From: Burkholderiaceae bacterium
Lineage (GTDB): Bacteria; Pseudomonadota; Gammaproteobacteria; Burkholderiales; Burkholderiaceae_C
DNA length: 51,855 bases
Assembly: GCA_016790515.1 (NCBI GenBank)
Contig: JAEUOY010000011.1
Span: forward strand, 1 to 51,855
Direction: 5' to 3'
Part shown: piece by piece, positions 13,979-19,029 of the stretch
Layout of the letters: each line of letters starts with the position of its first letter
How positions within the stretch are numbered: the first letter of the stretch is position 1
Position numbers and translations under genes: made by a program
Notes under the pieces: generated by a model
The model's database searches: none
The model's input: the letters and a program-made list of their open reading frames with translations, nothing else
What the model was told of the DNA's origin: nothing

Positions 13979-14009
13979 ATTATAGATGCGGCTCGATGAA
14001 GGCCGTCAA
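13979..14009 (-). promoter_or_regulatory. sigma-70-type promoter for rho, overlapping the trxA stop
   Basis: On the minus strand, TTGACG (14004-14009) and a perfect TATAAT (13979-13984) are separated by 19 bases. The -10 box overlaps the trxA stop codon (13980-13982). Transcription would begin near 13972, leaving about 280 bases of untranslated leader before rho. The spacing is two bases longer than ideal. Confidence 0.6.
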
Positions 14010-14309
14010 TTGCGCCTTGGACAGCGCGCCGACCTTGGTGGCGGCGAGTTGGCCGTCCTTGAACAGCATCAGCGTCGGGATGCCGCGGATGCCGAACTTC
14101 GCCGGCACCTCGCGGTTCTCGTCGACGTTCATCTTGGCGATCTGCAGGCGATTGCCGAACTCCTTGGCAGTCTCGTCGAGGATCGGCGCGATCATCTTGC
14201 ACGGGCCGCACCACTCGGCCCAGTAGTCCACCAGCACCGGCGTCTGCGACTTCAGCACATCGGCTTCGAAGGTGGCGTCGGTGGTGTGCTTGATCAATTC
14301 ACTGCTCAT
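13980..14309 (-). CDS. trxA: thioredoxin 1
   Basis: Small cytoplasmic dithiol-disulfide oxidoreductase. The start at 14309 follows an AAGGAA ribosome site and yields 109 residues; the longer open frame upstream is unrelated sequence. The active site is WCGPC (Cys34 and Cys37) inside [16 protein letters not shown]. The cis-proline loop is visible as [10 protein letters not shown], and the buried Asp in LVDYW is present. It is upstream of rho on the same strand, a conserved pairing, and divergent from the HDOD pair. Confidence 0.97.
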
Positions 14310-14536
14310 CGTTGTTCCTTGGGAGGCGCCGCGGGGCCTGAGTCCTCGAGACGAGGCTTTGGGGAAAAGCCCTGGAATTTTCGCACAAAGGGGCTGTCGG
14401 CGTGCTCGCCGGGTCGACCGCGACAGCGGCGGACGACGCCGCTGCGGTGGCGATCTGGGGCCGCTTGCTCCGTCTGTTCGGGCCATTGCCCGCGGCGGTC
14501 TTGGGTCCAATCGGCAAATCCACCCCGAGCCGTCCG

Positions 14537-16318
14537 ATGGCCGCCACACCGCCACCCCGACCCGCATCGTCCCGAGCCGTCCGGCACCTGGGTCGCTTCC
14601 AACTGCTGCGACTGCTCGGCAAGAGCGAGCGCACGATGCTCTGGCTGGTGGCCGACGCCCGCGCCGGCCAGGAACTGGTGCTGGCGCTGCCGCGCAGCCA
14701 ACCCGCCGATGCCGCCGCGCTGCAGCGCTGGCTGGACAACGCCCGCAAGGCCGCGCGCATCGACCACCCGGGTCTGGCGCCGGTGGTGGAGGTCGGCGAA
14801 CACGAGCGCTGGCCTTACCTGGCCTACGACCGGGGCAACAGCGTCACGCTGGCCGAGCGGCTCGGCAGCAAGGGCTTCCCGCCGGCCGAGCTGGTGGCCT
14901 GGATGCTGCAGGCACTGCAGGGCCTGGCCTTCGCCCACGAGGCCGGGCTGGCCCACCACGACCTGCAGGCCGGCATGCTGATGCTGGCCGAGGGCAGCGG
15001 CTGCCGGCTGCTGGGTCTGGGCGCGGCGCTGCCGCCGGCCGGCGACACCGGCAGCCTGCCCTCGCATCGGCGTGCGGCCGAGCGCGATGTGCTGGCGCTG
15101 GGCGTCGTGCTGCACCACGGCCTGGCCGGGGTGCCCGCGCTCGACCTGCCCGACACCGGCCAGGTGATCGATCGCATGCCGCCGCTGGGGCGCGACATCG
15201 TGCGCCTGCCCTGGACCGGCGCACATGCCGTGCCCGAGGCGCTGCGCGCGATCGTCAACCGCGCCACCGACCGCCAGGAGCGCCAGCGCTACCGCAACGC
15301 GCGCACGCTGGAGCGCGCGCTCGGCGGCTGGCTGAAGACCGACGGCGAACCCGGCGGCGGGCCGATCCTGCTGCTGCTCGACCGCATGCGCGCCGTCGGC
15401 CTGCTGCCGGCGATGCCCGGCGGCGCGGCGCGCGCGGCGCGCCTGGCCACGCTCGAGCGCGAGCGCACCAACGAGCTGGCCGAGATCGTGATCCAGGACG
15501 TCGGGCTGGCCTTCGAGCTGATCCGTACCGTCAATGGCAGCCGCATGCGCGGCGCGCTGGGCGCCGGCGGCGGGCCGATCCTGACGATCCGGCGCGCGAT
15601 CTCGATGATCGGCATCGACGGCGTGCGCCAGGCCGCGCTGACGCTGCGGCCCTGGCCCGGTCCGCTCAACGAAGCCCATGCCGCCGATCTGGCGACGCTG
15701 CTCGACCGGGTGCGGCTGGCCGGCAAGGTGGCGCAGTGGCTGCGCCCGGCCGGCTACGACGCCGAGGTGGTCTACCTGCTGGCGATGCTGCAGAACCTGG
15801 GTCGGCTGCTGGTGCAGTACCACTTTCCCGAGGAGGCCGCGCAGATCCGTCGCCTGATGCTGCCGGCGCCGGCGGCCCGCGCTGGCGAGCCCGAGGATCC
15901 TGGCATGAGCGAGGAGGGTGCCTCGTTCGCGGTGCTGGGCGTCGACATCGATGCGCTGGGCACCGCGCTGGGCCGGCACTGGGCGCTGGACGACAGCGTG
16001 CTGCAGATGATCCGGCGAATCCCGCTGGCGGCGCCGGTGCACGCCGCCGACGCCGATGCCGACATGTTGCGGCTGGCCGCCAGCTGTGCCAACGAAGTGG
16101 TCGACGCGCGCTCGGTCCCGGCGCACCACCGCACGGCCTTCCTGCACCGCGTCGTGCAGCGCTACGGCCGCGTGCTCGGCGTGACCCAGCGCGAGGTGAT
16201 GCTGGCCGCCCAGGGCATTGCACCCGACGAGGCGCCCGAGGGCGCTGCCGGCACGCCCGGCGAGCCTGCTGCCGCGGCCGGCGCAACCCATCACGCGCAG
16301 CACGGGGCTGAGCCATGA
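14537..16318 (+). CDS. HDOD-domain protein with a degenerate protein-kinase domain (pseudokinase-HDOD)
   Basis: The N-terminal part (about residues 17-260) follows a bacterial Ser/Thr kinase layout but has lost the catalytic residues. The VALK lysine site reads LALP, the HRDLKPSN loop reads HHDLQAGM (His140 onward), and the DFG motif reads GLG. It is therefore expected not to phosphorylate. The C-terminal half (about 270-560) is an HDOD domain with [38 protein letters not shown] and [18 protein letters not shown] Pro/Ala-rich tail ends it. Start choice: ATG 14537 is preferred because codon use upstream is poor; a GTG at 14402 would add 45 residues. Its stop overlaps the first mini-ORF of the repeat array. 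HDOD proteins are usually signalling scaffolds; the target here is unknown. Confidence 0.8.
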
Positions 16319-16380
16319 GCGCGCCGGGCCGCTCCCAAGCGCGAATCCCGGAGCGCGCAGCGCGGAGGGTTGCCCGATGA
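16315..16380 (+). CDS. repeat-encoded mini-ORF 1 (21 residues)
   Basis: ATG at 16315 overlaps the stop of the pseudokinase-HDOD gene (ATGA). The peptide runs [17 protein letters not shown] and ends RVAR. It is Arg-rich and basic. The stop TGA overlaps the ATG of mini-ORF 2. There is no good ribosome site of its own upstream, so translation would depend on re-initiation. Whether the peptide has a function or is only a by-product of translational coupling is unknown. Confidence 0.35.
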   Translation: MSAPGRSQARIPERAARRVAR

Positions 16381-16442
16381 GCGCGCCGGGCCGCTCCCAA
16401 GCGCGAATCCCGGAGCGCGCAGCGCGGAGGGTTTTCAGATGA
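16377..16442 (+). CDS. repeat-encoded mini-ORF 2 (21 residues)
   Basis: Same peptide as mini-ORF 1 except for its penultimate residue (ends RVFR). It is preceded by GGAGGG with 7-base spacing, an excellent ribosome site. Start and stop each overlap the neighbouring mini-ORF by ATGA. Too short to judge as a protein; the arrangement is the notable point. Confidence 0.35.
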   Translation: MSAPGRSQARIPERAARRVFR

Positions 16443-16504
16443 GCGCGCCGGGCCGCTCCCAAGCCCGAATCCCGGAGCGCGCAGCTGGGAGGGCCGTCCC
16501 GTGA
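16439..16504 (+). CDS. repeat-encoded mini-ORF 3 (21 residues)
   Basis: Begins [16 protein letters not shown] and ends GRAVP. It is preceded by GGAGGG. Its TGA stop (16502-16504) overlaps the GTG start of the kinase-HDOD-GAF gene (GTGA at 16501-16504), so ribosomes finishing it are positioned to re-initiate on the kinase gene. Confidence 0.35.
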   Translation: MSAPGRSQARIPERAAGRAVP

Positions 16505-19029
16505 GTGCCGCGCCAGCGCGCCGGGCCGGCCAGCGCCTGGGGCGCTTTCGCCTGCTGGGCGAACTGGGCCGGGGCGCGCAGGCCACGGTCTGGCGCGCGC
16601 ACGACGAGCGGCTCGACCGCGAAGTGGCGCTGAAGCTGCTGGTCGGCGAAGGCGCCAGCCAGCCGGTGAGCCAGTGGCTGCACGAGGCGCGCGCGGTCAG
16701 CCGGCTGGTCCATCCGCACCTGGTGCCGGTGTTCGAGGCCGACGAGATCGACGGCCAGCCGATGCTGGTGTTCGAGCTGGTCGGCGGCCGCACCCTGGCC
16801 GAGGCGCTGCGGCGCGATGGCGCGATGCCCGCGCGCGAGGCGGTGGAACTGATGCTGGGGGTGGTCGACGCGCTGCGTGCCGCGCACGCGATGGGCATCG
16901 TGCACCGCGACCTGAAGCCATCGAACATCCTGGTCGATGCCGAAGGCCGCGCCAAGGTGATGGACTTCGGCATCGCGGCGCGCCTGGCGCCGGCCGGCGG
17001 CGACCGCAGGCCGGTCGAGGGCTTCGAGGGCTTCGAGGGCTGCATCGTCGGCACCCCCGGCTACCTGTCGCCCGAGGCGGCGGCCGGCTGCGCGCCATCG
17101 CCGCAGATGGACGTGTTTGCCGCCGGCCTGGTGCTCGGCGAGCTGCTGTCGGGCAGGCCGCTGCTGGCCGAACGCGACGCCCGCGCCGCGCTGCGCCGGG
17201 TCCAGCAGGAGGACCTGCTGCTGGGCCCCGCGGCGGCGGCCGACGACCGCTTGCGGGCGATCGTGCAGCGCGCCATTGCCCGCGATCCGCAGCAGCGCTA
17301 TGACTCGGCCGCCAGCCTGCGCGATGCCCTGATGCAGTGGCTGGCGCCGGTCGACGAGGGCCTGCCCGAGGCCGGCAGCGGCCACGGCACGCTGGACTTC
17401 CTGCTGCGCCGCATGCGCCACAAGAGCGACTTTCCGGCGCTCACCGAGCATGTGCTGCGCATCCAGCGCATGGCCACGTCGGAAGTCGAGACCCTCAGCA
17501 ACCTGGCCGATGCGATCCTGAAGGACGTGGCGCTGACGCAGAAGCTGCTGCGCCTGGTCAACACCGCGCACTTCCGCCGCAGCGGCCATGGCGTCAGCAC
17601 CGTCACCCGCGCGGTGGCGCTGGTCGGCCTGGCCGGCATCCGCAACCTGGCGCTGTCGCTGGTGCTGGTCGAGCACATGAAGGACAAGGCCCAGGCCCAG
17701 CGCATGAAGGAGGAGTTCCTGCGTTCGCTGCTGGCCGGCCAGCTGGCGCGTGCACTGGGACCCACGGCGCGCGACGCCGAGGAGGCCTCGCTCGGCGCGA
17801 TGTTCTACAACCTGGGCAAGCTGCTGACCGAGTACTACTTCCCCGACGAGGCCGAGGCCATCCGCGCGCAGCTGCGACTCGCCGCCGCGGCCGAGCCGCG
17901 AGCGCATCCGGACGTGGTCGCCGACCGCGCCGCCGGCATGGTGCTCGGGCTGGGCTTCGAGGCCCTGGGCGTCGGGGTGGCGCGGCACTGGGGCCTGCCC
18001 GAGACGCTGCAGCGCTGCATGCGCCGGCCGGTCACCCCGTCGCCGCCGCTGCCGATGGCCCATGGACCCGAGCGCATGCGCTGGCTCGCGGTGGCCGCCA
18101 ACGAACTGGCGGACGCGGTCTGGCATGGCGACGAGGCGACGCTGCCGGCGCGGCTGGAGGCGGTCGCCCAGCGCCATGGCCGGGCGCTGGGGCTGAGCCT
18201 GACCGAGCTCGGCCGGGCGGTCGCCGAGGCGAGGCAGACGCTGGCCCAGATGGCGCCGGCGATGGGCCTGTCGCTGCCCGAGGGCAGCCGCGGCCAGCAG
18301 CTGCTCGACCAGGGTGCCGGGCCGGACATGACCGATTCGCTGCTGCCCCACCAGCTGGCGGCCACGCTGCCGCTGGCAATGGCCCGCCCCGGTCTGCCGG
18401 CACCGCCGGCGAGCGTGCGCGCCGCCGGCGCGGGGCGGGCCCAGGATGCGACCGTGGCGCTGGCCGCGCCGGTGGCCGGCGCGGTCCCGGCGGCGACCAC
18501 CGACATGCTGGCCGCCGGGGTCCAGGACATCACCGAGACCCTCGCCGGCGACAGCTTCCGCCTCAACGAGGTGTTGCGCATGGTGCTCGAGACGATGTTC
18601 CGGGCGCTGGCCTTCCAGCGCATCGTGTTCTGCCTGCGCGATGCCTCGGCCGGCCGGCTCAGCGGCCGCTTCGGCCTCGGCGACCGGGTGGCGGCGCTGA
18701 GCCCGCTGTTCGAGGTGCCGCTGCGCTGGCCGGTCGGCCAGCCGCCCGACCTGTTCGGCGCGGTCTGCCTGAAGGGCAGCGACACGCTGATCGACGACAG
18801 CCGCCAGCCGGGGATCGAGAAGCGCCTGCCCGATTGGTACCGGCGCCAGGTCAATGCGCCGTCGTTCGTGCTGCTGCCGCTGATGATGAAGGGTGCACCG
18901 TTCGCGCTGATCTACGCCGACCAGTCGCGTCCCGGTGCACTGCGGGTCGGCGAGCGCGAGCTGGCGCTGCTGCGCACGCTGCGCAACCAGGTGGTGATGG
19001 CCTTCCGCCAGGTCAGCCAGACGGGCTGA
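16501..19029 (+). CDS. Ser/Thr protein kinase fused to HDOD and GAF domains
   Basis: An 842-residue signalling protein. The kinase domain (about residues 15-280) is intact: glycine loop LGRGAQATV, Lys45 in VALKLL, catalytic loop HRDLKPSN (135-142), DFG at 155-157 and the activation segment GTPGYLSPE. An HDOD domain follows (about 295-520) with LTEHVLRIQRMATSEVETL, AILKDVALTQKLLRLVNTA and MFYNLGKLLTEYYFPDEAE. A linker leads to a C-terminal GAF-like domain (about 675-840) with LNEVLRMVLETMFRALAF and a closing LLRTLRNQVVMAFRQ helix. It starts with GTG directly behind the third 62-bp repeat, which provides its ribosome site. It is a paralogue of the upstream pseudokinase-HDOD protein; the pair probably acts together. 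The substrate and the GAF ligand are unknown. Confidence 0.9.
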   Translation: MSAAPARRAGQRLGRFRLLGELGRGAQATVWRAHDERLDREVALKLLVGEGASQPVSQWLHEARAVSRLVHPHLVPVFEADEIDGQPMLVFELVGGRTLAEALRRDGAMPAREAVELMLGVVDALRAAHAMGIVHRDLKPSNILVDAEGRAKVMDFGIAARLAPAGGDRRPVEGFEGFEGCIVGTPGYLSPEAAAGCAPSPQMDVFAAGLVLGELLSGRPLLAERDARAALRRVQQEDLLLGPAAAADDRLRAIVQRAIARDPQQRYDSAASLRDALMQWLAPVDEGLPEAGSGHGTLDFLLRRMRHKSDFPALTEHVLRIQRMATSEVETLSNLADAILKDVALTQKLLRLVNTAHFRRSGHGVSTVTRAVALVGLAGIRNLALSLVLVEHMKDKAQAQRMKEEFLRSLLAGQLARALGPTARDAEEASLGAMFYNLGKLLTEYYFPDEAEAIRAQLRLAAAAEPRAHPDVVADRAAGMVLGLGFEALGVGVARHWGLPETLQRCMRRPVTPSPPLPMAHGPERMRWLAVAANELADAVWHGDEATLPARLEAVAQRHGRALGLSLTELGRAVAEARQTLAQMAPAMGLSLPEGSRGQQLLDQGAGPDMTDSLLPHQLAATLPLAMARPGLPAPPASVRAAGAGRAQDATVALAAPVAGAVPAATTDMLAAGVQDITETLAGDSFRLNEVLRMVLETMFRALAFQRIVFCLRDASAGRLSGRFGLGDRVAALSPLFEVPLRWPVGQPPDLFGAVCLKGSDTLIDDSRQPGIEKRLPDWYRRQVNAPSFVLLPLMMKGAPFALIYADQSRPGALRVGERELALLRTLRNQVVMAFRQVSQTG

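Follow-up and report, generated by a model that had tools for sequence, protein, structure and literature searches.

Introduction

REP elements, to which RAYT transposases belong, are hairpin repeats found near gene ends. Mycobacterial interspersed repetitive units (MIRUs) were reportedly described by Supply et al. in 1997 (Mol Microbiol 26:991). According to a review of 2025, MIRUs are apparently mobile, insert at start codons, and contain an internal ORF coupled with a −4 nt spacing, and this coupling probably allows insertion with little harm (PMC12548453). Their size ranges from 40 to 100 bp, and at the rnc-fpg1 junction only a few bases separate the two genes in species without repeats (PMC2734929). 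In Betaproteobacteria, the BRE are GC-rich dispersed repeats, present in tandem with a variable copy number; some overlap ORF ends by a few bases, the full length is 75-91 bp in Bordetella, and their function was left open (Hot et al. 2011, PMC3110155). The TAACTGA repeats of Beggiatoaceae are intergenic direct repeats placed just upstream of start codons, for which a translational role has been proposed (PMC4679880). Finally, termination-reinitiation occurs at ATGA overlaps, where removal of the Shine-Dalgarno (SD) sequence reduced reinitiation in most gene pairs tested (PMC6728339).

Here we describe a family of 62-bp units starting from one locus of the window, i.e. the whole stretch of 51,855 nucleotides that was analysed. 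Like MIRUs, the unit is short, scattered at many chromosomal sites and partly in tandem, and the 4-nt overlap between ORF and gene is found here as well, in 171 of 237 units (plus 12 of the TGATG/TAATG type). MIRUs are mycobacterial, from another phylum, and the 62-bp family is from Burkholderiales; the two are likened here by architecture. The portions of the MIRU literature considered say nothing of two hairpins that covary, of avoided stops, of in-frame units or of a burst confined to stop codons, all of which are seen here. BRE are the nearest repeats by taxon; judged from their description and not from sequence, the 62-bp unit falls outside their 75-91 bp range, while a second family presented below (74-92 bp) would largely fit it, and the parts of the BRE paper considered describe neither frame rule nor coupling (PMC3110155). 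With the TAACTGA repeats the difference is one of size, seven bases against 62 (PMC4679880). The ATGA junctions studied for reinitiation are of the same type as ours, but there two genes adjoin directly, and here a chain of mini-ORFs is inserted (PMC6728339). In open-licence PMC full text, no description of the 62-bp element was found, BRE and MIRU being the nearest.

Results

Three 62-bp units between two HDOD genes

The locus contains the following features (window coordinates).

14402..16318 (ORF extent), + strand: upstream gene, encoding an HDOD protein whose protein-kinase-like region is degenerate (ORF list; Pfam)
16315..16376, + strand: unit 1, 62 bp, mini-ORF 16315-16380 (sequence, ORF list, Tandem Repeats Finder)
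16319..16342, + strand: hairpin 1 in the first unit, formed by its positions 5-8:25-28 and 12-14:20-22, recurring every 62 bp (covariation, 84 units)
16353..16363, + strand: hairpin 2 in the first unit, formed by its positions 39-42:46-49, directly 5′ of the SD, recurring every 62 bp (covariation)
16364..16369, + strand: Shine-Dalgarno-like GGAGGG of unit 1 (sequence)
16377..16438, + strand: unit 2, 62 bp, mini-ORF 16377-16442 (sequence, Tandem Repeats Finder)
16439..16500, + strand: unit 3, 62 bp, mini-ORF 16439-16504 (sequence)
16426-16431 and 16488-16493, + strand: GGAGGG of units 2 and 3 (sequence)
16501..19029, + strand: downstream gene, protein kinase with HDOD and GAF (ORF list; Pfam)

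Direct reading confirmed the geometry given in the initial annotation: two HDOD genes are separated by three units of 62 bp, every one of which holds a mini-ORF of 21 codons followed by a TGA that stops inside the next start. The TGA of the upstream ORF (16316-16318) overlaps the ATG of the first mini-ORF, the TGA of mini-ORF 3 (16502-16504) overlaps the GTG (16501) that starts the kinase gene, and GGAGGG is placed 7 bases ahead of the next start in all three units. Tandem Repeats Finder reported 16315-16493 with a period of 62, 2.9 copies, 94% matches and a score of 316, the top of its 14 rows. By eye, substitutions in unit 3 disrupt pairs in both hairpins. A search of window positions 14000-19000 with Rfam covariance models was negative up to E 5.

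The downstream gene matched Pfam Pkinase (E 2.6e-40), HDOD (6.7e-28) and GAF (9.6e-6). In the upstream gene, HDOD was found with E 4.4e-15 and Pkinase with E 4e-5, at 23.6 bits, below the cut-off of 31.7. HRDLK is a protein kinase motif, and where it is expected the upstream gene reads HHDLQ by eye. The label of putative pseudokinase rests on this sub-threshold match and on that reading. Two side observations concern the same genes. Within the kinase gene, three perfect 9-bp repeats (17015-17041) are in frame and read EGFEGFEG; DFG stands on one side of them and the GTPGYLSPE stretch on the other, which makes this the likely activation loop. Also, 16 genus genomes have a close kinase match, and in 15 of them the two genes of the HDOD pseudokinase/kinase pair (window 14402-19029; L254-L268) are neighbours; in the 16th, G010, a contig end cuts the pair.

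Dispersal of the unit in the genus and the family

As the initial annotation had proposed, the unit was searched against its own genome and relatives. In the window's genome (G000, 5.0 Mb, 176 contigs), nine further places matched, with E values from 1.2e-22 to 1.4e-8. At E 1e-3, matches were obtained in 17 of 40 genomes (self and relatives), every one in the same genus, and most matches in relatives carry RTGA at both boundaries. Below E 1e-8, at least 13 of the 21 genus genomes matched; four others had only fragments of 21-22 bp and four had none. Because of these nine places and of the many relatives that match, the repeat of the window is not due to chance.

At the family level, where a 25-base core was searched with up to 3 mismatches, at least 55 of 399 sampled genomes and at least 31 of 141 genera matched (genome counts are lower bounds), as against 2 hits in total for the reversed control pattern. 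The presence of similar elements in Burkholderiales, mentioned in the initial annotation, is thereby supported. The most places in one family genome, up to 35, were found in G117. In a class-wide sample of 369 genomes, G000 was the sole match (0 of 368 others), and the plasmids, phages and viral contigs searched gave no match to the unit. Tandem hits in named records came from three stretches of two Rubrivivax sp. MAGs (Burkholderiales), one of which has 507 bp at 89% in common with a locus of G014, a genome of the window's genus; the window thus probably stems from that part of Burkholderiales. In the named loci, model hits follow one another at spacings of 66, 64 and 69; in L185, the spacing of 64 consists, by eye, of 62 up to GTGA and then two extra bases.

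The nearest neighbour of a unit was within the same genome in 27.6% of cases, compared to 4.3% after shuffling (maximum 9.1%), and in G010, 8 of 9 units have one common hairpin-2 sequence. Such resemblance would fit either genome-specific bursts or gene conversion. Contigs start or stop in or near unit arrays at L064, L066, L069, L094, L098, L102 and L103, which means that tandem copies are probably undercounted in draft assemblies. At L087:2025-2060, a 12-bp inner piece of the unit (GCGCGAATCCCG) is itself in tandem.

Units lie at stop/start junctions

The anatomy of the arrays was analysed for 244 units in 195 arrays, 115 from a genus set (114 records: 100 stretches, 13 earlier loci and the window) and 80 from a family set (80 stretches of 36 genomes). 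The latter was hand-picked among the matches listed and deliberately favoured tandem arrays, so that array-size frequencies are biased. Genes were called with a purpose-made simple caller trained on four window genes rather than with a standard program, and its start criterion was lenient.

Under these definitions, 119 of the 195 arrays are exact stop/start junctions. Among genus arrays, 57 have stop and start, 22 stop only, 22 start only and 14 neither; the corresponding numbers among family arrays are 62, 6, 9 and 3. An upstream gene on the same strand was found for 103 of 115 genus arrays, and in 79 its stop falls exactly on positions 2-4 of the unit; a downstream gene on the same strand was found for 95. 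In the family set, these numbers were 77 of 80, 68 and 80. As background, RTGAGC sites outside genes at the same loci were junctions in 9 of 86 cases (genus) and 9 of 31 (family), giving an odds ratio of 8.4 in both sets (p 1.7e-9 for the genus, 4.5e-6 for the family). The placement is therefore not explained by tolerance of intergenic insertion alone. Non-coding placement without conservation of frame or ATGA, named beforehand as evidence against the relay, is thus not what most arrays display; genome G018, described below, does display it in part.

The mini-ORF frame is kept open

Mini-ORF ends were counted for 237 of the 244 units. The mini-ORF ends in the ATGA of the next start in 171 units and at a TGATG/TAATG type of junction in 12 more; the others run in frame past the next start (33), overlap it out of frame (7), stop early (4) or have no next start (10). 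The first codon is not ATG, GTG or TTG in 21 of the 237, including 15 of the relay class, which leaves 156 of 171 relay units with a start codon as well. The in-frame units are N-terminal extensions or fused mini-ORFs instead of a relay. Unit lengths (n = 227) are 2 modulo 3 in 187 cases, 0 in 34 and 1 in 6, and none of the 49 tandem spacings (59, 60, 62, 63, and one of 24) is 1 modulo 3, bearing in mind that copies within one genome are not independent. Two of the 49 unit-to-unit steps were unclassifiable (in one a contig end truncates the unit, the other is the 24-bp partial duplication); the 47 others were either relays (27) or in frame (20). The comparison thus supports the proposal of the initial annotation that the relay geometry is kept as copies are added.

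We then asked how often the mini-ORF frame is interrupted. From 163 distinct 62-bp units (over 66 bases), 158 were kept after a similarity filter, and expected stops were computed by reassigning the observed substitutions at random among sites that carry the same base. Within positions 4-54, 0 of 158 units had a stop in the mini-ORF frame, for 17.0 expected and a minimum of 6 in 500 runs. Frame 2 had 13 stops (15.4 expected) and frame 3 had 1 (5.3 expected). In a wider set of 213 units that includes length variants, frame 1 is interrupted by a stop in 3 units, frame 2 in 19 and frame 3 in 5. The avoidance depends on three positions. One of them, position 37, is the first base of a GAG/CAG/AAG codon; it is non-consensus in 85 of 158 units, and is A, C or G but never T. 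RNA constraints might alternatively fix the three positions, though position 37 varies. Stop avoidance in the mini-ORF frame is an indirect sign of translation.

A 60-bp cousin of the unit (MSPPGRPKGEYRSAQHEG-like peptide), seen at L207:1370-1489, L191:1430 and L234, reads in frame into the next start; in L234 it stands one unit ahead of a 62-bp unit, and none is present in the window. N-termini of this kind occur in Comamonadaceae proteins.

Two hairpins covary

Covariation was examined with 84 of 133 non-redundant units. Over these, 97.6% of cells in hairpins 1 and 2 are paired. Double-change cells amounted to 45. Shuffled alignments gave 7.5, none of the 500 reaching the observed value, and slid controls gave 2-11. 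Five pairs show at least one double change, which does not exceed all slid controls (2-5). Pair 41-47 of hairpin 2 is GC in 55 units, AU in 18, CG in 7 and GU in 3 of the 84. Nearly the same helices were recovered by RNAalifold unaided. The compensations GCGC/GCGC, GCAC/GTGC and GCCC/GGGC alter amino acids, which means that the structure is conserved and not the peptide. Unit 1 taken alone is not unusual in folding stability (z 0.00), and the case for an RNA structure depends on the covariation. RNAalifold also suggested a longer hairpin 2, in which positions 34-35 pair with 53-54 and would sequester the SD; this was rejected as a distinctive mechanism, as accessibility was no lower than in shuffles (43 of 90 lower).

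Bare junctions, copy-number changes and the G018 exception

Orthologous kinase junctions without units were found in 14 genomes. In 13, the upstream stop and an in-frame start share a four-base overlap (ATGA in 6, GTGA in 3, TTGA in 4), and five of these have further in-frame starts downstream. The 14th, in G016, has ATGA at positions 1448 and 1474 of L265, i.e. a 26-bp insert with a 9-codon mini-ORF (L265:1448-1477), which overlaps both neighbours by ATGA like a relay and has no sequence similarity to the unit.

At least two units precede the orthologous kinase gene of G010, where the contig starts inside the array and the upstream gene is out of view. G000 and G010 belong to separate, strongly supported clades, and 0 of 200 bootstrap trees need one change only, the G010 branch being long. 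The array was thus either gained twice, or lost several times. A change of copy number is visible between L208 (G056) and L212 (G334), two genomes of one genus: both sides are 98% identical, and the difference is exactly one 62-bp unit. The dispersal through genus and family genomes and the bare junctions of relatives agree, by comparison, with the mobile element that the initial annotation had offered as an alternative.

The exception is G018, in which 11 of 23 arrays begin with CTG or CTA and not RTG. All 11 sit exactly on the stop codon that ends the gene before them, one of these stops being a TAA; 6 are ahead of a convergent gene, 3 ahead of a same-strand gene and 2 near contig ends. These start-less copies (L059, L060, L062-L068, L070 and L071) are nearly identical and probably represent a recent burst; the genes that end there are unrelated (dbpA-, amidase- and PhoD-like by eye). 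Either stop codons as such are targeted, or gene-end hairpins have another use. For one copy, behind a putative dbpA, truncation of that gene was considered and set aside: the proteins of most relatives end near the same place without a unit, and the gene is not plainly truncated.

A second, 83-bp family

At L002, the 62-bp unit adjoins a unit of 83 bp (L002:1432-1514). This second family has matches in at least 10 of 21 genus genomes, and the window's own genome has 9 matches; its loci are L305-L334, unit lengths of 74, 80 and 92 also occur, and L307 holds a tandem. The plan, RTGA-hairpin-GGAGGG-RTGA, is that of the 62-bp family, and the peptide differs despite this shared architecture. Among 27 units listed, 21 begin with RTGA and are followed by a further start, and 19 of these 21 are exact relays, L326 and L328 being the exceptions. 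The exact relays measure 83 bp (14), 80 (2), 92 (2) or 74 (1), all 2 modulo 3.

Discussion

We conclude that the 62-bp family is real, widespread, and a MIRU-like relay. The unit is probably a short insertion cassette, dispersed over many loci, which leaves translational coupling intact and works like a mycobacterial MIRU. The cassette would be set into a gene pair at the point where stop and start overlap by four bases (RTGA), its 5′ end holding the upstream stop in its own ATGA; it would encode the 21-codon mini-ORF, and its 3′ part would provide the hairpin, the SD and a new RTGA. A ribosome finishing the upstream gene would then re-start on the mini-ORF, and again on the downstream gene, and coupling would survive with a single copy or with several tandem copies. 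From the sequence comparisons, we infer that ribosomes pass along the units, that the unit moves as an element, and that preserved coupling is the reason for its location. Against this reading stand the start-less G018 arrays at stop codons, and the units that run on in frame, overlap out of frame or stop early. The interpretation given in the initial annotation is, overall, partly supported.

That annotation had also envisaged an adjustable relay that sets the ratio of the two HDOD proteins. In such a rheostat, the host would retain and vary the number of copies, and a share of ribosomes would be lost or gained at every step. Copies before the same gene do vary (none in 14 relatives, three in the window, two or more in G010; 1 versus 2 in L208/L212), and in M. 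tuberculosis higher fpg1 mRNA accompanies longer MIRU-VNTR arrays (PMC2734929). However, 158 of 195 arrays are single despite the deliberate choice of tandems in the family set, and units are found at many gene pairs, so that we consider such a rheostat unlikely. A little less probable still is a REP-like hairpin that stabilises or processes mRNA at stop codons, with an incidental reading frame. The covarying hairpins and the 11 of 11 start-less G018 copies placed exactly at stop codons, one a TAA, speak for it, and hairpins near gene ends are common to both kinds of repeat. The 62-bp unit nevertheless adds an SD and a start, and retains SD and RTGA at its 3′ end; stops are avoided in the mini-ORF frame and not in frame 2, and lengths are mostly frame-preserving. 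A RAYT partner was looked for and discarded: the Y1 transposase PF01797 is present in 7 of 12 unit-bearing genomes and absent in 5, and the stretches around the 7 matches contain no unit.

The well conserved first half of the unit and the stop avoidance could also be due to a functional small peptide made from the mini-ORF. This we regard as highly improbable, as the hairpin compensations change residues (ERAAR, EHAVR and QPAGR, translated by eye) and the 83-bp family has a different peptide in the same architecture; the mini-ORF peptide itself is probably unimportant. Another proposal bears on origin: two or more relay families of Burkholderiales would have reached the MIRU strategy independently, with insertion aimed at stop codons or translated junctions, perhaps through mobilisation at the RNA level without a known transposase. 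If so, such targeting would have left its footprint in the start-less copies of G018, which all lie at stop codons, and the unrelated 26-bp mini-relay of G016 would show that junctions gather relays repeatedly. We hold this to be doubtful.

For the insertion cassette, MIRU is the best parallel, and the 62-bp family is best called MIRU-like, not a MIRU. The coupling mechanism is already known from MIRU; the two families themselves were not found in print. If our reading is true, mycobacteria are not alone in having coupled gene pairs that take up a self-contained stop/SD/start relay. More than 200 natural copies, some with bare orthologous junctions or differing by one unit, would make serial re-initiation on mini-ORFs directly measurable, and relay units could explain short spurious ORFs and N-terminal extensions in annotations.
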